A stretch of 43,274 nt of DNA from the IMG/VR virus record IMGVR_UViG_3300019886_000010, positions 1-43,274 of that record; one strand, given 5' to 3'. Source of the DNA: a virus. Within the stretch, counting starts at the first letter, position 1, and the number at the start of each line of letters is the position of its first letter. Positions 1,395 through 37,438 of this stretch are shown here, in pieces. The notes beneath the pieces are model-generated. The model did no database searches. It saw nothing but the letters and a program-made list of their open reading frames with translations, and was not told where the DNA came from. Position numbers and translations under genes: made by a program.

Positions 1395-3089
1395 ATGGCA
1401 ACACTCAAACACGAATGCCCATTCTGTCATAAGCCCGCGAAGCTTAAATCAGAATTCCCATTTGGTAAGAAAATCATGCGTTCGTATTTGTGCGGGCATA
1501 CGGAGTTTACGTCAGTGACCGCGCCCATGGAATTCACGCCTACGCAAGCTGACATTGCATTAATCAATGAGATTGACACGAATGAACTTGCTCGATTTGA
1601 TGACGATGGCGGGCATATTCCATGGATTAAGCCCGAAATCGATCCGTCCTTCTGGGCATTGGCGCCCACGGAACCATTCTTTTGTAATGAATGCCAAGAA
1701 ATTCATGCAGTTCATCATGCATACGCATATCAGCGTGAAGGTGTCAAATTTGCAGAGCATGCAAACTTCAGTGCATTAATTGCTGATGCGATGGGCCTAG
1801 GTAAAACCATTCAAGGTTTGCTTCTCATTCGTCGTAACGTTGAAGCATTGACTCCTACGCTATTCGCAGTGAAAGGCTCAACGCAGCTTCAATGGTGCCA
1901 TCAGTTAAAATACTGGCTTGATGATACACCGTTAGGCGTAATGCCCATCATGAATCGAGAATCGATCATTCGCGGATTCAAGTATTATGTAATCAGTATT
2001 GATTTCCTGGCACGTAAAGGTGTGCTCGACAAGTTAATAGCATTGGGCATTAAGCTTATCATCGTTGACGAATGCCAAAATTTTAAAAATCTCTCATCGC
2101 AACGAACAAAAGCACTCATTAAATACATTGAAGAATGTAAGATTGAGTACAAAGTTTTCTTGAGTGGAACCCCGATCAAAAACCGTGCGAGTGAATATTA
2201 CCCTGTATTGAACTTACTCGATCCCGTGCGTTTTTACTCACAAGCTTCCTTTTGTAAGAATTGGCTAATCCCGAACGAAAAAGGTATATACACTCGGATC
2301 GATCCATACATGCTTGATAAGTTCCACGAATTAACGTCGCAATACATTATTCGACGTGAGAAACGCGACGTTCTTACATCGTTGCCCAAACTGATGCCAC
2401 GCGACTATCAGTACATGGAAATCGAAGATCCACTATTGAAAGATATCTACAATAACGAATTGGATCTTTTTCAGAACTTTCAGCGCACAGCAGGTAAGAT
2501 AAACTCCACTGTATTGCTAGGCTGGCTTGCTAAAATGCGCGCGATTACAGGGCAAGCTAAAGTTCCATGGGCAATTGAGTATACTGAAGAATTCATGAAT
2601 GACACTGAAGATTCATTGCTCTTAGGTATTCACCACGTTTCTGTACGCGATACGCTTTATCTTGCAATGACACAAAAAGGTTACAGCGTCGTGAAGTTTA
2701 GTGGCGAAGATAACATTTATGCAAAGGAACGTGCGAAGGAAGGTTTTATTTCGAAACGTTTCCGTCTGATGATTATGAACATGCTGGCTGGCGGAGTAGG
2801 CGTTGACGGATTACAAAAGGTATGTTCGAACGCTGTTGTGCTCGAACGTCAATGGAACGCGGCCGATGAAGAACAATTTGAGTCACGTTTAGATCGAGAC
2901 GGGCAAAAGATTCCATGTACGTTTGTCTACCCAATAGCCAAAGGTACAGTTGACGAATGGTTCCATGATGGTGTAGCGGTTAAACGTCAAATCTGCGCTG
3001 AAACGTTAGGTGACTCGTTCGAGATTGAATCAGATGAAGGTTTCCTCCGTGACTTAGTAGACAAAACGTTAAGCAATCCATTAAGGTGA
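1395..3089 (+). CDS. SNF2/DEXH-type helicase (DNA translocase)
   Basis: 564 aa superfamily 2 ATPase of the SNF2 type. Visible motifs: zinc-ribbon cysteines in the first 35 residues and a second CNEC pair at 97-100; Walker A DAMGLGKT at 131-138; motif II DECQ at 225-228 in place of DEAH; motif III SGTP at 257-260; and motif VI QFESRLDRDGQK at 494-505, whose R-x-x-R-x-G-Q core is the SNF2 arginine finger. The family translocates on duplex DNA and remodels protein-DNA complexes. In phages such genes lie in replication modules. It is the first large gene of the early arm, so a role in opening or clearing DNA for replication is plausible. The specific role is inference. Confidence 0.88.
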   Translation: MATLKHECPFCHKPAKLKSEFPFGKKIMRSYLCGHTEFTSVTAPMEFTPTQADIALINEIDTNELARFDDDGGHIPWIKPEIDPSFWALAPTEPFFCNECQEIHAVHHAYAYQREGVKFAEHANFSALIADAMGLGKTIQGLLLIRRNVEALTPTLFAVKGSTQLQWCHQLKYWLDDTPLGVMPIMNRESIIRGFKYYVISIDFLARKGVLDKLIALGIKLIIVDECQNFKNLSSQRTKALIKYIEECKIEYKVFLSGTPIKNRASEYYPVLNLLDPVRFYSQASFCKNWLIPNEKGIYTRIDPYMLDKFHELTSQYIIRREKRDVLTSLPKLMPRDYQYMEIEDPLLKDIYNNELDLFQNFQRTAGKINSTVLLGWLAKMRAITGQAKVPWAIEYTEEFMNDTEDSLLLGIHHVSVRDTLYLAMTQKGYSVVKFSGEDNIYAKERAKEGFISKRFRLMIMNMLAGGVGVDGLQKVCSNAVVLERQWNAADEEQFESRLDRDGQKIPCTFVYPIAKGTVDEWFHDGVAVKRQICAETLGDSFEIESDEGFLRDLVDKTLSNPLR

Positions 3090-3119
3090 GCCGAACGTGA
3101 GTGCGGAGGACAATGCACA

Positions 3120-3239
3120 GTGCAGTACAGTATAGTTATCCTTATGCTTGTAATGACAATGGCAGTGACAATGACAGTGATAACTATAACTATAACTGTA
3201 ACTACAATTACAACAACAGTCGATAATATTAGGTTGTGA
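3120..3239 (+). CDS. possible 39-aa hydrophobic peptide
   Basis: A GTG-started frame with GGAGG ten bases upstream. It reads a run of I, V, L, M and T residues that could span a membrane, and its stop sits over the GTG at 3236. The DNA is a simple-sequence tract and a second frame from ATG 3113 (37 residues, rich in N, D and Y) is also open. An open frame is therefore weak evidence here. Treat as tentative. Confidence 0.2.
   Translation: MQYSIVILMLVMTMAVTMTVITITITVTTITTTVDNIRL
3135..3229. repeat. period-6 simple-sequence tract A
   Basis: Between the helicase and the next gene the sequence becomes a degenerate repeat of hexamers such as ACAATG, ACAGTG and ATAACT (three consecutive copies near 3180). 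A related tract lies at 41637-41760 in the opposite sense, sharing a TTATCCTTAT...TGTAATGA core on the complementary strand. Each lies upstream of a plus-strand gene block. Regulatory or origin-like use is possible. Confidence 0.5.
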
Positions 3240-3280
3240 AAATCGTTATTGTTGGCGAGACTAAATTTCGAGGTTTTGAA

Positions 3281-3559
3281 ATGGAAAATGACTTAATGGA
3301 AAATGACTCAATTCTTCCGTCATCCGATCCAATCATCAATATTCGACAATTTGATGGCCCAGATTACGATGTTCATGGCAAATGGTACGTTGTACGTGTA
3401 TCCAATAACGGATTAAGTTCCCCGTGCCATGAATATCTGCACTCAAATTTAAAGTGGCGCAGTATGGCGACTGATGAACGTGGTAATCCTGTCGGTTATT
3501 ATGATACGCATGAACAAGCGGAAGCCACGTTGAAAACTTACAGACTTATGTATTCATGA
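3281..3559 (+). CDS. hypothetical protein (92 aa)
   Basis: Unknown family. I chose ATG 3281 because GAGG precedes it by seven bases. A GTG at 3236 would add 15 residues and would overlap the stop of the small ORF upstream. The first 30 coding bases are a near-perfect tandem duplication of 15 bases, so the protein begins with the same five residues twice (MENDL, MENDS). The rest contains a KWYVVRV strand-like segment and an acidic, proline-poor C-terminus. Its stop overlaps the start of the cysteine-peptidase-like gene (ATGA). Confidence 0.55.
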   Translation: MENDLMENDSILPSSDPIINIRQFDGPDYDVHGKWYVVRVSNNGLSSPCHEYLHSNLKWRSMATDERGNPVGYYDTHEQAEATLKTYRLMYS

Positions 3560-3927
3560 ACGAAATGAACGAAATGAACGAAATACGCTACACTGAAACG
3601 AATGATTGTACTGTGCGTGCAATTTCGCAAGCATTCAACATTACATATGAAGCATCACATGCATTGTGTAAAGCGTATGGTCGCGTTGACCGCGCCGGGT
3701 TTCATGTGGATGCAAAGCTTTTGGGTGCAATGCGTGATAGGTTGTTCATTTTAGATCAATATACAGGCAAAGTTGTGTCATCCGTTCTTAAGTTGATTGA
3801 TCCACTTGGAACGTACATTTGTCTTGTCGATGGGCATATGTTTTGTATACGTAATCAAAAATCACTGGATGGTTTTGATAACTCACGTAAACGAATTCGA
3901 CGAATATTCAAGGGGGTTACGAAATGA
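3556..3927 (+). CDS. small papain-like cysteine peptidase candidate
   Basis: 123 aa. An NDCTVRAIS segment with Cys18 starting a helix, a GHMF segment with His94, and downstream D105/D108/N109 follow the Cys-His-Asp/Asn order of papain-fold enzymes. Small phage proteins of this DC-V-RA-I type are known, mostly without function. The residues between the two motifs could form the short beta-sheet of such a fold. The gene begins with ATGAACGAA repeated three times, so there are three in-frame ATG codons. It overlaps both neighbours by four bases. Protease activity is inference. It could also be an inactive fold or an amidase. Confidence 0.5.
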   Translation: MNEMNEMNEIRYTETNDCTVRAISQAFNITYEASHALCKAYGRVDRAGFHVDAKLLGAMRDRLFILDQYTGKVVSSVLKLIDPLGTYICLVDGHMFCIRNQKSLDGFDNSRKRIRRIFKGVTK

Positions 3928-4028
3928 CATGTACGTATGCAGTATCGAGTGCATTCTTTATTGGAGTGGGCATTGGAATGTTGATTGCGGTGGGTTGTTA
4001 CATGACCGCGAAACGAAAGAATTCATGA
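3924..4028 (+). CDS. 34-aa single-TM micro-protein
   Basis: Starts in the stop of the previous gene (ATGA, 3924-3927) and ends in the start of the next one (ATGA, 4025-4028). GGGGG lies about ten bases upstream. The peptide has one hydrophobic stretch of roughly 20 residues, rich in G, I and V, then a short basic tail ending KRKNS. This fits a single inner-membrane helix with a cytoplasmic C-terminus by the positive-inside rule. Function is unknown. The double overlap is the best evidence that it is a gene. Confidence 0.55.
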   Translation: MTCTYAVSSAFFIGVGIGMLIAVGCYMTAKRKNS

Positions 4029-4304: not shown

Positions 4305-4469
4305 ATGCGATATTTACTTAAGCAATTAATAAATTATCATGTTGAAAACTACATTCGAATTTGTTTAGCACCTGAATTTACAGAATCCCGGCATTTTGAT
4401 CAAACAATTGCTGAACGTAAGTATCTGGCAGCAGTGAATACGTTACGCGATTTCGTTAAATGGCTATAA
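4305..4469 (+). CDS. hypothetical protein (54 aa)
   Basis: Short gene with AAAGG five bases before its ATG, starting two bases after the previous stop. The product starts MRYLL and is mixed helical with two aromatic-rich segments. No motif or transmembrane helix is evident. Spacing and ribosome site match its neighbours, which is the reason to call it. Confidence 0.5.
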   Translation: MRYLLKQLINYHVENYIRICLAPEFTESRHFDQTIAERKYLAAVNTLRDFVKWL

Positions 4470-4486
4470 ACGAAGGTTAAACTATA

Positions 4487-4726
4487 ATGATTGATATCAC
4501 TCCACAGGAATTCAAGCTGATAACGGATAATGTATTCATAAATGCAACTTCAAAGTTAACTCCAGAGCAACGAAATAAAGTTGTAAAACTCGCCACTGAA
4601 CTTGAAACTACACTTCGAGCGCATATTACGGAAAACGGCGGAGAATATACGACTGGAGTCTTGTTTACTGCGTTGTTAATACACTTAAAAGTTGTCATGC
4701 ATTTAGGTTTAGAAGATCCATCATGA
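4487..4726 (+). CDS. hypothetical helical protein (79 aa)
   Basis: Preceded by AAGGTTAAAC, the ribosome-site pattern common in this genome. The sequence contains a TPEQRNK segment and predicted amphipathic helices. The last third is hydrophobic (TALLIHLKVVMHLGL) but broken by charged residues. The stop overlaps the start of the Cas4-like nuclease (ATGA), so the two are probably translated together. Function unknown. Confidence 0.6.
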   Translation: MIDITPQEFKLITDNVFINATSKLTPEQRNKVVKLATELETTLRAHITENGGEYTTGVLFTALLIHLKVVMHLGLEDPS

Positions 4727-12862: not shown

Positions 12863-13309
12863 ATGCTGGATAATAAGCATGGAAGGCTCACATTTAAAAC
12901 AAACGCAGAAGGTTATCGATTAGTTTTTAAGCCTGACCATCCCAGAGCTACAAATGGAAATCATGGTTATGTCTATGAGCATATACTTATTGCTGAAACA
13001 GCTCTAGGTAAATACATCCCAATAAAGCATCCAGTTCATCATCAGGATGAAAACAACAGTAACAATCAAAATTCAAACTTAGTAATTTGTGAAAGTCATA
13101 AGTATCATATGCTTTTGCATGCTAGAATGCGAGTGTTAAAAGCAGGATACGATCCAAACCTATACAAGATATGCACTAATTGCAAAATAGCTAAAATGAA
13201 GATGTACTTTACGTTTAAAATTAGTTCGCATGACAACTTAGATCCTTCTTGCGTACAATGTAATGCTCTAGTACATAAGCTGAAAAAATTGAATAAACGC
13301 ATAAAATGA
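12863..13309 (+). CDS. HNH endonuclease with C-terminal zinc knuckle
   Basis: 148 aa. The HNH core is HPVHHQDENNSNNQNSNLV near residues 53-71, followed by HMLLH. A C-terminal pair CTNC ... CVQC (about residues 110-135) is the zinc-binding tail common in phage HNH homing endonucleases. These are selfish genes that cut DNA lacking their insertion. It is lodged between a polymerase-linked gene and the DUF3987-like helicase. The following gene lacks a good ribosome site, consistent with insertion damage to the original leader. Confidence 0.8.
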   Translation: MLDNKHGRLTFKTNAEGYRLVFKPDHPRATNGNHGYVYEHILIAETALGKYIPIKHPVHHQDENNSNNQNSNLVICESHKYHMLLHARMRVLKAGYDPNLYKICTNCKIAKMKMYFTFKISSHDNLDPSCVQCNALVHKLKKLNKRIK

Positions 13310-23942: not shown

Positions 23943-25940
23943 TTATGGTACGAAATTCAGTAACTTTGTATGCGCATAATCCAATGATGCCAATCGAAGA
24001 TCATCAAAGAATGCAATGACATTACCGTCTTCTTCAGCATAAAGTAACGTGGGTAGATAATTCAGCGGGCGCCAATATTTCTTCTGAAGGTCATAAACTT
24101 CAAGCCTTCGAGTCCATGTTGAATCATCGTTGATCGTTGTATCAGATGTATAATCCGTAATGACTGGAACTACACAGTAAGCTTTATCACGTGCAACTGC
24201 AATAGCGTAACGAAATGCATCCGCAACAATAACAGGAACCCCGCCATATTCATAGCGTACAACGCCCGTATAAAGTAGATCCGTATTCAGCTCAACTAAT
24301 GAGTGAAAGTCACCGCTTGTACTAACGATGGACCATCCAAATGGAGTATAGTATATTACCGCAGTCTTATACACCGCAACATCACGACAAACTGGAGGCT
24401 TTTCAATGCCCAGCGGTCGATGATAAACATCCAACGTTCCATCTGGCTGTGTAATGTATGTACCCGTTAGAGTATATACATCATGTGTCGTTCCAATTAA
24501 AACTGTATTCTCACTAACCTTGCGAGCCCAAAGAAAAACTTCACCCTCTGTACCTGCAATGCGAATTGTTAGCGCGGGGTCAAAACAATCCGGTTGATTA
24601 GGTGGCGTAAACAACAATTCTTCAGTTGTAAAATAAAGCATCCGGCCATTCACCGGCCCAACAATTTCAACAATGTCATCAGTAAGATTAGCTGCGTTTA
24701 CTTCAAGCAATGTATCATTAAGTAAGATACCTAATGCTAGTGCATCCTCATCAGATGTAATATCATCAAATGGAGCCAATGCACCTAACTCCATACGTTC
24801 AATTCGATAATACGAACTTAATGTTCCGCCACGACGAAAGATCCAAATCTCAGTAGTTTCAGGTGAGATTATGGAAGGATCTTCAGGAATAATTGTTGCG
24901 TTACCATTAACGATCGTCAATGAATCACTGACAGGCCCAGGTATCGATTGTACTTCATAAAGACCAGTTTTAAGTACATTGACTTGTAGCCAATCGTATG
25001 TTCCATTCAAAGCGGCTTCTGAATTATCTGTAAACTGAAATGCACTATAGATACATGATGCAACAGCCACACTCAACTTCGTTTCAATGATAGTTTGAAT
25101 GAGAATTACATTGGCCCAAGTATACGTTGAATTCGTGCCCGCGCGGATGAAATCGCCTCGTTTTTTACTTAACGATACGTTTCCACCTGGAACGACAACT
25201 CCAGTAATATCTGACGGATAAAACTTGGCGGAGTACAACTCACCAGTTGCCATCGTAAAGTTAACTGCGATATCAACTAGCTTTGTAAAATCATCCATGG
25301 ACAACGTAAATGAGAAAATGTCTTCATCACTTCCGCTGTAGTCTTGAGCAACATTGGCGTTATTACAATGAGCCGCGGCCACCCTAACACCCGCGTAGGT
25401 TGCGCTAGTGAGTAACTGAACTGAAATTGCACTTAGAATCATTGTACCGAATTCAACAGAGTGTCCAGAATAAAAGTCGCTTGCAAATGTAACAAGTAGC
25501 GGCGCTGCGTTCGCTGTCACTAAAGGTGCAGTTGTAGGCTCAGCTAAAATCAACGAACTCACTGTGCCATCACATTCATCTTTAAGCAACGTTTTTCCGG
25601 TTGCAATTAAAACGAAGTCACCGAAAACACCGAACGCGGCCCTAGTCAATGAACCTGCCGCCGCTGCTACAATCGCTGTCGCATCACGATAAACTGCACC
25701 AGAAACCAATGCAAGATATCTTCGTTTTACACCGCATACATACTTTGAAAACAATGTATGTGCCGCAGCAGGATAAACTGTCGCATGTCGTTTAGTGCCA
25801 TTGGACATAACGAGCGCGCCATTCTCATCTAACGTTACGCCTTCCATACGTAATAAAATGTTCTTTCTACCGTTGAGTGCGTCGTCACTTGGCGCCCACC
25901 CCCCAGAATAATCATCAAATTTGATCTGATTTGGGCTCAT
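23943..25940 (-). CDS. tail hub / head-tail stabilisation protein candidate
   Basis: 665 aa from ATG 25940 (GGAG nine bases upstream). The frame is open from 25964. The N-terminus (SPNQIKFDDYSGGWAPSDD) and the next motif (VTLDENGALVMSNGTKRH) resemble the beginning of podovirus tail proteins whose body is a beta-propeller, such as P22 gp10-like hubs. The rest is beta-rich with many V, T and Y. It follows the adaptor genes in the transcript, which is the usual place. The 5' end overlaps the HNH gene by 26 bases. Confidence 0.6.
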   Translation of the reverse strand: MSPNQIKFDDYSGGWAPSDDALNGRKNILLRMEGVTLDENGALVMSNGTKRHATVYPAAAHTLFSKYVCGVKRRYLALVSGAVYRDATAIVAAAAGSLTRAAFGVFGDFVLIATGKTLLKDECDGTVSSLILAEPTTAPLVTANAAPLLVTFASDFYSGHSVEFGTMILSAISVQLLTSATYAGVRVAAAHCNNANVAQDYSGSDEDIFSFTLSMDDFTKLVDIAVNFTMATGELYSAKFYPSDITGVVVPGGNVSLSKKRGDFIRAGTNSTYTWANVILIQTIIETKLSVAVASCIYSAFQFTDNSEAALNGTYDWLQVNVLKTGLYEVQSIPGPVSDSLTIVNGNATIIPEDPSIISPETTEIWIFRRGGTLSSYYRIERMELGALAPFDDITSDEDALALGILLNDTLLEVNAANLTDDIVEIVGPVNGRMLYFTTEELLFTPPNQPDCFDPALTIRIAGTEGEVFLWARKVSENTVLIGTTHDVYTLTGTYITQPDGTLDVYHRPLGIEKPPVCRDVAVYKTAVIYYTPFGWSIVSTSGDFHSLVELNTDLLYTGVVRYEYGGVPVIVADAFRYAIAVARDKAYCVVPVITDYTSDTTINDDSTWTRRLEVYDLQKKYWRPLNYLPTLLYAEEDGNVIAFFDDLRLASLDYAHTKLLNFVP

Positions 25941-26400
25941 AGTTCGAAACTCCAAAATTCCCATGATATTTTTTAACTGCTATATCATATGCTTTCGCAG
26001 CACTCTCAATTAAATCGTAATAACCTAATCCCTTACAAAACCCATTTACTTTAATTTGAGCTGTCCATTTTTGAGCCCTTTTTGACCAAGTTACACCTTT
26101 GAACCCGGAAGTATTTGTAACTGGTTTTCTTTTATTCCAAGCGTTTTGCAATTTAGTTGCAACTCGCAAATTAATCCGTTGATTATTAAAAGGGTCTCGA
26201 TCAATATGATCTGGCTCCATTTCTGGATGTTTAATATTGAGTAATAGATGTCCAACTGAAAAATAAGGTGGCCTTGTCATTCTAATTGCATACCCATGAC
26301 CAGTATTTATTAAATACCATTGATACTGTTGAATTGAATGCAAATCTGCGTCATCAATTAAAAACGTCAAAGTTGAATTTGTAAGGCTAATGCTTTTCAT
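25915..26400 (-). CDS. HNH homing endonuclease with AP2 domain
   Basis: 161 aa. An N-terminal 60 residues, then an HNH core (DHIDRDPFNNQRINLR, residues 64-79; His65, Asn73, Asn77), then an AP2-type DNA-binding domain starting SGFKGVTWSKR (98-108) and containing WTAQIKV. This HNH-AP2 order is typical of phage homing endonucleases. It starts in the stop of the small gene upstream (ATGA) and its end runs 26 bases into the tail hub gene, so it fits without breaking either neighbour. Confidence 0.85.
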   Translation of the reverse strand: MKSISLTNSTLTFLIDDADLHSIQQYQWYLINTGHGYAIRMTRPPYFSVGHLLLNIKHPEMEPDHIDRDPFNNQRINLRVATKLQNAWNKRKPVTNTSGFKGVTWSKRAQKWTAQIKVNGFCKGLGYYDLIESAAKAYDIAVKKYHGNFGVSNYEPKSDQI

Positions 26401-35454: not shown

Positions 35455-36912
35455 TTAACCTTGCCTAAAGTTATCTACTGCCGTTCGTAACTTATGAATT
35501 CGATTAAAGTATGCAAAACTTCTTCGTGGTGGAGTTTTTTCAGGCTCCTTCATACCTACGCCGTGAACTGCAACATAATATCGAACGCAATCATAAGCGT
35601 GATCGGGTACTTTCGGGTCGCGGTCTTCGCTGTAAAATTTCTTTCCGTTAACTTCACCTAAAAGCAGCTTACGTTGTCGTGTAGTTTCAATTAAAGCTTG
35701 ATGACAACCATACGGCCATCTTTCACCTGACTCAAGAAAATAAATACCAGGTGCAGGGCTTTCCTTCGTTATTGGATTAACGAACTTTCCACCACCGCGT
35801 AACAACTCATTAATGCGATTTCGTGTTGCGAGTTCATTATTATCCGCTGGTGCCCAATAAAGTGGCGGCGATAAGATTTCTTCCGTATCAGCATATTCAT
35901 TTGCCGTTGTCCAATGTCCACCATTTTTCTGGCCTGTCTTTTTAAAGATCTGCGGATCAGCATAATCGTTAAAATTATCTAAATTCTTTTCGTCACACAA
36001 TATAACAGAGATATCATGAATATGCTGCCGATGATTACTAATGACATCGTTAGGTTGATAATACTCGCCAAAAATAAGGTGAATCCCGTTAAAACAAGCA
36101 ACCCAAAGGCAACAAGTAGGAGCAGTTTCACCGTGGTCCAAAATTCGATACAGGGAAGCTTTTTCTCTAATGATTTTGAGAAGCGCAGTCCATTGTTCTT
36201 CTTCAATTTCATCTGGATTTATTCGTGAACTCTTTTGTATTGAATGAACCGCCCCACCACTGATTACCTTTAAACCTAAATAATACTTATCAATCCAACT
36301 TTGATCCCGTGTAAGTATTTGACCAATTGTAGCTGCATCATTTAAATCGTCATCAGTCTTACGTACAATAGAAAAGTGTGTAGATAACGGTTTACGTTCC
36401 ACGGAGTCTGCATCAAAATATCGTGATACCCAGTGAAATTCGTCATCAGAAGGATTATCCAATATATCAACATAATTTGGAACTAATGGATAACCCCACT
36501 TAGGATGCCGCGGCCAGTTTGGAAACTGCTTCAGAAGGTAATCTGGCACTTCTGCCTTATCCCAGCGGCCAACACGAGCATCCATCAAAAGGAAGATTGC
36601 TTCCTCAACTTCCTCTGCTTGATCTATTAAAAGTGCATTGATCTCAAAACCTTTCGCGGTTGCCTCATCCATTTGGTCAAGATGCAACCAATAGACACGT
36701 GAACCATTAATAAAAGTTGTAAGGCCAAAGTTTTCATCATGAGTATTAACGAACTCTGCTGGACAGATCTTAAAAAACGTTTGCATCGTACTTGCGCGTA
36801 AGTTTTTATAAACTTGACGACACGCCGCAACACGATAATTAGGAAAAGTCATCAGCATTGTCAACGCACGTAAACATGCAGCGTAGGTCTTACCATTGCC
36901 AAAGCTTTTCAA
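35455..36912 (-). CDS. terL: terminase large subunit, main frame
   Basis: 485 aa open from a TTG codon. It starts inside the ATPase P-loop (KSFGNGKTYAACL). A Walker B-like strand (INALLIDQAEE) lies near residue 90, and the C-terminal nuclease part carries acidic clusters (NDYADPQIF, DPKVPDHAYDCVRYY) typical of headful terminases. The first about 35 residues of the domain are in another frame just upstream (36909-37016). The protein drives DNA packaging through the portal and cuts the concatemer. The break in frame is discussed under findings. Confidence 0.85.
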   Translation of the reverse strand: MKSFGNGKTYAACLRALTMLMTFPNYRVAACRQVYKNLRASTMQTFFKICPAEFVNTHDENFGLTTFINGSRVYWLHLDQMDEATAKGFEINALLIDQAEEVEEAIFLLMDARVGRWDKAEVPDYLLKQFPNWPRHPKWGYPLVPNYVDILDNPSDDEFHWVSRYFDADSVERKPLSTHFSIVRKTDDDLNDAATIGQILTRDQSWIDKYYLGLKVISGGAVHSIQKSSRINPDEIEEEQWTALLKIIREKASLYRILDHGETAPTCCLWVACFNGIHLIFGEYYQPNDVISNHRQHIHDISVILCDEKNLDNFNDYADPQIFKKTGQKNGGHWTTANEYADTEEILSPPLYWAPADNNELATRNRINELLRGGGKFVNPITKESPAPGIYFLESGERWPYGCHQALIETTRQRKLLLGEVNGKKFYSEDRDPKVPDHAYDCVRYYVAVHGVGMKEPEKTPPRRSFAYFNRIHKLRTAVDNFRQG

Positions 36913-37016
36913 CCTCCCCCGAAGCGATTATTGCGTTTTTTGCTCCAGAAGAATTTCTCCTGTGCCTCATTCCGAAACTCAATATTTAACTCCAGGGGAG
37001 ACCACCTTTCTAGCAT
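36909..37016 (-). CDS. terL: terminase large subunit, N-terminal piece in the previous frame
   Basis: 35 codons from ATG 37016 reading LERWSPLELNIEFRN ... QEKFFWSKKRNNRFGGG and stopping at a TGA. This is the usual beginning of a terminase ATPase and stops where the Walker A glycines should join FGNGKT in the main frame. Joining needs a -1 shift (or removal of 8 bases around the TGA). It could be programmed recoding, a real inactivating change, or an error in the GGGGG run. No ribosome site is visible. Confidence 0.55.
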   Translation of the reverse strand: MLERWSPLELNIEFRNEAQEKFFWSKKRNNRFGGG

Positions 37017-37155
37017 GTAGGTTATCTAATGCTCGTTTTCTTTCACATAGAATACATTCACTTCGATAACCATCAAGTGAAGACTTTCGCTTTCCAAAAT
37101 AGATGTGCAATTTTAATTGCTGACATTTATCACACCACTTTTGAGTATTTTGAAG
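36979..37155 (-). pseudogene. start-less zinc-knuckle ORF (HNH-tail remnant)
   Basis: A 58-codon frame open after a TAA and ending inside the terminase N-terminal piece (38-base overlap). It reads KWCDKCQQLK ... ECILCERKRALDN, the C-x2-C ... C-x2-C tail seen at the C-terminus of many phage HNH endonucleases, including the one at 12863. There is no ATG, GTG or TTG before the first pair of cysteines. A 21-codon frame from an ATG near 37183 leads up to it in another frame. It is probably a remnant of a homing gene next to the terminase, or a frame-broken small gene. Confidence 0.45.
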
Positions 37156-37198: not shown

Positions 37199-37438
37199 TT
37201 AGTGTTTCGGAATTCGAGATTTAACTCCATTCATTCGTTTCTTTGTGGCTTCAAGTTGCGCAGGAATTGTTACTTCATTCAATATACGTTGCATGAAACT
37301 TTTAACAGCTGCTTCCGCGGCTACTGTCCATGCATATTGGGATCGAATAGCTAAACTATCCCATAAGGTAAAAACTGAAAGCTCTCTTTTACCGTCAAGA
37401 TAATAGGCTTCGTAAGCTATTTTCCCAATGGCTTCCAT
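37199..37438 (-). CDS. hypothetical protein (79 aa)
   Basis: Starts at the stop of the gene before it. Helical with an aromatic N-terminal part (AYEAYYLDGKRELSVFTLWD) and a basic C-terminus. No motif recognised. Its place just upstream of the terminase could fit a packaging accessory, but there is no direct sign. Confidence 0.5.
   Translation of the reverse strand: MEAIGKIAYEAYYLDGKRELSVFTLWDSLAIRSQYAWTVAAEAAVKSFMQRILNEVTIPAQLEATKKRMNGVKSRIPKH

Follow-up and report, generated by a model that had tools for sequence, protein, structure and literature searches.

The DNA analysed here is IMG/VR record IMGVR_UViG_3300019886_000010, a stretch of 43,274 nt from a virus of bacteria, and the whole of this stretch is called the window below. 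Its minus strand carries the gene for a terminase large subunit in two parts, a short insert between them and, upstream, an open reading frame without a start codon (Table 1). The N-terminal part opens with ATG 37016 and ends in RFGGG, directly followed by a TGA stop codon (36911-36909) in the middle of the Walker A motif. The other half of the motif, continuing as FGNGKTYAAC..., restarts in the -1 frame, one base earlier, and this frame stays open down to 35455. A first-pass annotation had described this arrangement, with the same minus-strand coordinates, and it was borne out. Homologous starts lie at M/LEL, and the downstream part belongs to PHROG 979, terminase large subunit (E 6.4e-8), with a weak match to Pfam Terminase_6N.

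Table 1. Coordinates of the features discussed, in the window unless another genome is named
Feature	Position	Strand	Remarks
Small gene, 79 aa, upstream of the terminase; left flank of the insertion	37199..37438	-	From the ORF list
Vestigial original terminase start MELNLEFRN, with ATG	37204..37230	-	Overlaps the upstream gene, as the terminase start of L005 does
HNH endonuclease remnant, C-terminal zinc-knuckle tail, start-less	36982..37155	-	Stop overlaps the terminase start; profile E = 1.4e-8
N-terminal part of the terminase large subunit, MLERWSPLELNIEFRNEAQEKFFWSKKRNNRFGGG, up to and including half of Walker A	36912..37016	-	tblastn of L005 residues 1-28: 36995-36912, 71%, in its own frame
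Possible RNA stem of 12 bp reaching to the take-off codon	36914..36953	-	Fold -13.5 kcal/mol; Shine-Dalgarno-like GGGGGAGGT overlaps the take-off codons
Proposed take-off codon, Gly GGT	36914-36912	-	Directly before TGA; last codon of the N-terminal segment
Out-of-frame insert TGAAAAGC in Walker A	36904..36911	-	First codon is the stop TGA after Gly GGT; absent from relatives
FGNGKT, second half of Walker A	36903-36886	-	Proposed resume codon TTT at 36903
Remaining terminase large subunit: second half of Walker A, rest of the ATPase, nuclease domain	35455..36903	-	77% identity to L005 residues 29-513
Intact paralogous HNH endonuclease, 148 aa, HNH_3 and the same zinc tail	12863..13309	+	Pfam HNH_3 E 1.1e-6
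Terminase of Streptomyces phage Hau3, L299 (JX182369)	2329-3995		Two 10-nt inserts; GreenWeasel and BroPlease are L300 and L301

The insert is exactly 8 nt long and lies between the GGG and FGN codons; the alignment allows it to be placed equally well as TTGAAAAG or GTTGAAAA. Aligning the window with its relatives, a check suggested at the outset, showed that all of them are continuous and that the window is longer by 8 nt. Every relative examined reads RFGGGFGNGKT or an equivalent without interruption and lacks the insert, including all 27 IMG/VR relatives fetched by means of the downstream terminase part; in the nearest one (L005, 77% identity) the motif reads MELNLTFRNAEQEAFYWSRKRNNRFGGGFGNGKTYVAC. 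Since the relatives run uninterrupted through the motif, the break in the window is an 8-nt insertion and not a one-base error in the run of Gs, which the first-pass annotation had offered as one cause. Indeed, one extra G would produce RFGGRLKSFGNGKT, which is not the motif of the family. The exact 23-mers on either side of the break have no other copy in IMG/VR, where no near-identical contig was found, the insert matches no other sequence in the window, and among the fetched loci it occurs solely in the window's own. Reading of the TGA as an amino acid was rejected, since translation would remain in the wrong frame, and so was an intron or intein, the insert being just 8 nt and the relatives having nothing at the site.

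The start-less ORF upstream, which had been taken for a zinc knuckle typical of HNH tails, was confirmed as such. It was found (37155-36982) when a profile built from five HNH tails (window 12863-13309, L110, L078, L172 and L173) was run on the six-frame translation of the window, and it has endonuclease VII / HNH matches in PHROG. The intact copies of this endonuclease also carry an HNH_3 domain scoring above the Pfam cut-off; the remnant consists of the tail only. The intact paralogue in the window is 43-46% identical to the HNHs found beside the terminases of L078 and L110. It lies next to a small gene and to a helicase-primase-like gene that starts 4 nt past the HNH stop. No obvious frame break adjoins this gene, nor the HNHs of the same family that lie between genes in L172 and L173. 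The window has a second, unrelated HNH with an AP2 domain (25915-26400, minus strand), which overlaps the start of the next gene (23943-25964); HNHs similar to it are found near the terminase-portal region of the relatives L116, L103 and L066. In L100, a GIY-YIG-like endonuclease with a similar zinc knuckle (2917-3435) lies just upstream of a gene resembling the terminase small subunit.

The HNH tail is bracketed by two copies of the terminase start. The vestigial one, at 37230-37204, reads ATG GAG TTA AAT CTC GAA TTC CGA AAC in the terminase frame, and the one that opens the present terminase, at 36995-36969, reads CTG GAG TTA AAT ATT GAG TTT CGG AAT; they differ mostly at third codon positions. 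In L005, the positional counterpart of the 79-aa gene (4438-4710) overlaps the terminase start. The presence of a vestigial start upstream of the tail and of a second, mostly synonymous copy downstream suggests that the HNH gene inserted itself some nine codons into the terminase, and it appears to have brought with it a terminase N-terminus that had evolved separately. The sequence AAGGTGG, which resembles a Shine-Dalgarno element, lies 6 nt upstream of CTG 36995, so this CTG, rather than ATG 37016, may be the start codon of the terminase. Several relatives have a TTG start at the matching residue.

How unusual such a locus is was assessed by alignment-based scans of 237 terminase loci, forming 85 clusters at 95% identity, 80 of which have at least 300 nt of upstream sequence. 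Apart from the window's own locus, just one of the 85 clusters is broken in frame. This is L078 (IMGVR_UViG_3300005559_000018, also fetched as L102 and L175), in which an intact HNH gene of 137 aa (3537-3950; Pfam HNH_3 E 1.1e-8) stands directly before the terminase. The latter reads ...RNNCFSGGFG, reaches GGT TAG and goes on with GNGKTW in the -1 frame, as the result of a 5-nt insert, TAGGA, between GGT and AAT. L047 and L051, which are 88-90% identical to L078 over the terminase, have neither the HNH gene nor the 5 nt, TTCGGT (or TTTGGA) running straight into AATGG. The inserts of the window and of L078 are at most 6 nt apart in a 1.5-kb gene; they differ in sequence and length, and both begin with a stop after GGT. 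Other partial matches that looked broken (L098, L099, L032, L083 and similar ones) were rejected as contig ends or intact variant motifs, and a terminase search of bacterial genomes returned nothing, or one distant intact relative (L305).

A third HNH-bearing terminase, that of L110, has its frame intact, from which it follows that the HNH does not require an insert. In the remaining clusters, among the 80 with upstream sequence, no HNH motif or zinc tail was found within 900 nt upstream. Thus, Walker A is broken in two of the three HNH-adjacent clusters versus none of the 77 others (Fisher p = 0.00095), and the link between the break and the HNH cassette is well supported by these comparisons. 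The window and L078 are independent cases, each from one metagenome assembly, and they are the two of the HNH-plus-insert type that were found. When the proteins of relatives were searched against the window, the terminase was the only one of 15 genes with homologues to be split across frames. The break in Walker A can be regarded as confirmed, as a genuine feature of the sequence as given that exceeds what chance or poor sequence would produce, because no other window gene with homologues is split and the single further broken cluster is interrupted in Walker A too, and likewise has an HNH gene as neighbour. The P-loop of L110 (2495-2600) shows a Gly-to-Ala change and several synonymous ones relative to the HNH-free L116. 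Recoding of this sort could be an alternative means of removing the nuclease site, but is suggestive only, the Gly-Ala P-loop being present in HNH-free relatives too.

The flank between the endonuclease and the insert bears traces of homing. Identity between L078 and L051 is 73.5% from the terminase start to the insert and 94.7% over the following 150 nt (p = 7e-7), versus a much weaker step, from 85.6 to 93.3% (p = 0.05), in the control pair L051/L047. A step at this position is expected if the HNH gene, the flank and the insert moved together, by co-conversion from the HNH to the cut site; it indicates that in L078 a divergent donor supplied the flank. For the window, the mark of a donor flank is the duplicated terminase start with its mostly synonymous differences. 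Nonsynonymous divergence before the break amounts to a pN of 0.10-0.14 in L078 and about 0.17-0.21 in the window, with pS saturated, and in the window the pN of the N-terminal segment is similar to that of the rest of the terminase gene. Low pN together with saturated pS points to purifying selection: to judge by these values, selection continues to act in both genomes on the protein encoded ahead of the stop.

It is decidedly unlikely that the breaks are assembly or sequencing errors made where HNH-bearing and HNH-free haplotypes join. Both genomes are indeed metagenome assemblies, the window has no near-identical IMG/VR contig to confirm it, and the identity step of L078 falls at the insert. 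However, different errors would have to have struck one motif in two unrelated contigs, each time beside an HNH; an assembler working on a graph of short reads links the words they share and does not create 5-8 bases of its own, and the 15 window genes with homologues contain no further frame break. Real inactivation would mean that the terminase acquired an indel through error-prone repair of a nuclease cut and that these genomes are defective or complemented. In its favour, both inserts lie in the presumed cut region, are short and are unlike each other, and in the window the HNH itself has decayed. We nevertheless consider it unlikely, for the terminase is essential to tailed phages, the rest of it and 14 other genes with homologues are intact, the segment before the stop is still under purifying selection, an assembled contig represents the consensus of a population, and cultured phages with such inserts propagate (see below).

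The locus is probably a decayed homing cassette of the T4 mobA/gene 60 kind, with a short insert that would be bypassed by the ribosome. A short bypass tied to a homing endonuclease was among the possibilities raised initially, and it has become the best-supported cause, given the HNH tail, the pairing of HNH and insert in L078 and the lack of both in L047 and L051; the bypass step itself we infer. According to this model, the HNH gene would have inserted near the start of the terminase gene, bringing along a recoded N-terminus of the terminase and the 8 nt that now interrupt the Walker A DNA. The target of the nuclease would be the conserved P-loop sequence, so that the insert would shield its carrier from its own nuclease, and in the window the HNH gene would later have shrunk to its zinc tail.

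The terminase is required for DNA packaging in tailed phages, hence its two parts must be joined. In the window, the ribosome would release the message at the Gly codon GGT before the TGA, skip 8 nt and resume at TTT, yielding RFGGGFGNGKT; in L078, it would release at Gly followed by the stop, skip 5 nt and resume at AAT. Skipping the inserts exactly restores the canonical P-loop in both cases. The landing codon in the window is approximate: 8 nt fits the protein, and a valid Walker A motif would likewise result if 5 or 11 nt were skipped.

Joining by a programmed -1 ribosomal frameshift, or by transcriptional slippage in the G-run, at GGG GGA GGT, would give a fused protein with extra P-loop residues. 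This fits insofar as the net shift needed is -1 for both the 8 nt of the window and the 5 nt of L078, and the window offers a G-run, a Shine-Dalgarno-like GGGGGAGG and a possible 5' stem. The fusion would read RFGGRLKSFGNGKT in the window and SGGFGLGNGKT in L078, with the glycine of GxxxxGK[ST] out of register in both; nearly every relative preserves that motif. Moreover, L078 has no slippery heptamer (ATTCGGT), slippage on its T-run would scramble the P-loop, and the C GGG GGA of the window departs by one base from X XXY YYZ. Of the -1 shift proposed in the first-pass annotation, then, the frame holds good but the P-loop comes out wrong in both genomes, and we regard it as unlikely. The misregistered products, together with the lack of a slippery site in L078, favour bypass, which is the best decoding model that the sequences suggest.

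A split terminase, made as two polypeptides with the second re-initiated at TTG 36912-36910, is very unlikely. In the window, this TTG overlaps the stop (TTGA) and GGGGGAGG adjoins it, yet the break falls right within the P-loop, and MKSFGNGKT would be the beginning of the second part; L078 has no equivalent overlapping start and no relative is split in this way.

Several features of the sites bear on bypass. One conserved gene has its two segments in different frames, separated by an insert that is absent from relatives, as in gene 60, and an adjacent endonuclease gene co-occurs with the insert. A Gly take-off codon is immediately followed by a stop in the window (GGT TGA), in L078 (GGT TAG) and in T4 gene 60 (GGA TAG); the chance that a random first codon would be a stop is about 6%. 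The landing match is imperfect. The resume point of the window is preceded by the codon AGC, with which the tRNA-Gly of GGT would pair at two of three positions, and in L078 it would pass from GGT to GGA; landing on GGC, a perfect match in the window, would cost the P-loop two residues. The element GGGGGAGGT, which covers the take-off codons and stops 5 nt short of the proposed landing codon, could aid placement. The imperfect landing, the weak signs of RNA structure, the unbroken frame of L110 and the unbroken neighbours of the other HNHs of the family speak against the model. RNA folding of 100-nt regions gave nothing significant. The stem of the window has a z of -3.05 in a region picked post hoc and ranks about second of 68 when set against homologous stretches, and a hairpin over the break site of L078 has a z of -2.1, again in a region picked post hoc.

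A review, citing a 2013 paper, names the terminase of Streptomyces phage Hau3 as a likely case of bypass (PMC5009743). An insert of 10 nt breaks the frame in Walker A (KGWG^KDP) of Hau3, GreenWeasel and BroPlease, and Hau3 and GreenWeasel have a second one, also of 10 nt, just before Walker B, whereas BroPlease has only that in Walker A; phiScoe10, phiScoe3 and Vanseggelen have neither. The terminase of GreenWeasel is annotated as separate ORFs. These cases share with the window a short out-of-frame insert in Walker A, after a Gly codon and absent from relatives; they differ in that the Hau3 terminase is of a different family and its 10-nt insert begins with TTA, not with a stop. The HNH of this group lies about 1.4 kb upstream of the terminase and is present in relatives without inserts as well, so that no link to a nuclease is established there. 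Hau3, GreenWeasel and BroPlease are isolates whose propagation needs the terminase, which means that such inserts can be tolerated.

It is conceivable, and we put it forward tentatively, that mobile nuclease cassettes have repeatedly settled in the ATPase motifs of terminases, carrying frame-breaking inserts of 5-10 nt that the ribosome skips, and that T4 gene 60 and the Hau3-type inserts are members of a wider class. A second endonuclease-linked case would have the advantage of inserts short enough to dissect, in a gene that every tailed phage needs, with occupied and empty relatives, and it makes testable whether translational bypass arose more than once as a cost paid for resistance to homing nucleases. 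Annotation pipelines will label such terminases frameshifted pseudogenes.

Among other known systems, the mitochondria of Magnusiomyces capitatus contain bypassing elements at 81 sites (PMC5009743). These resemble the present inserts in being short blocks of nucleotides skipped in translation, with a landing codon that is not always matched; they occupy many sites in mitochondria, whose decoding is relaxed, as against a single phage site here. Phages also have free-standing HNH homing endonucleases, which spread by intronless homing and likewise place an HNH_3 gene beside a conserved gene, with a divergent flank reaching to the presumed cut site. The usual cases keep the neighbouring frame intact, as L110 does, in contrast to the window and L078.

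The nearest parallel is T4 gene 60, which has been described as unique within the T4-related phages and for which natural parallels are few. Its 50-nt gap lies downstream of the HNH pseudogene mobA, in the order 39-mobA-60.1-60 (PMC3014915); according to a review, the insert possibly protects against the nuclease (PMC5009743), and mobA/gene 60 is described as a mobile cassette of a homing endonuclease and the 50-nt bypass (Bonocora 2011, as cited in PMC8300805). The window shares with it an HNH remnant upstream, an essential gene disturbed near its 5' end, an out-of-frame insert starting with a stop after a Gly codon, and relatives without either HNH or insert. It differs in its target, which is the Walker A motif of a terminase instead of a topoisomerase, in the size of the inserts (5 and 8 nt instead of 50), in an imperfectly matched landing codon, in that bypass is here a proposal, and in that the HNH is still intact in the L078 lineage. 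As far as can be judged from the sequence, the architecture is the same in outline as that of T4 mobA/gene 60, and is a variant of that kind.
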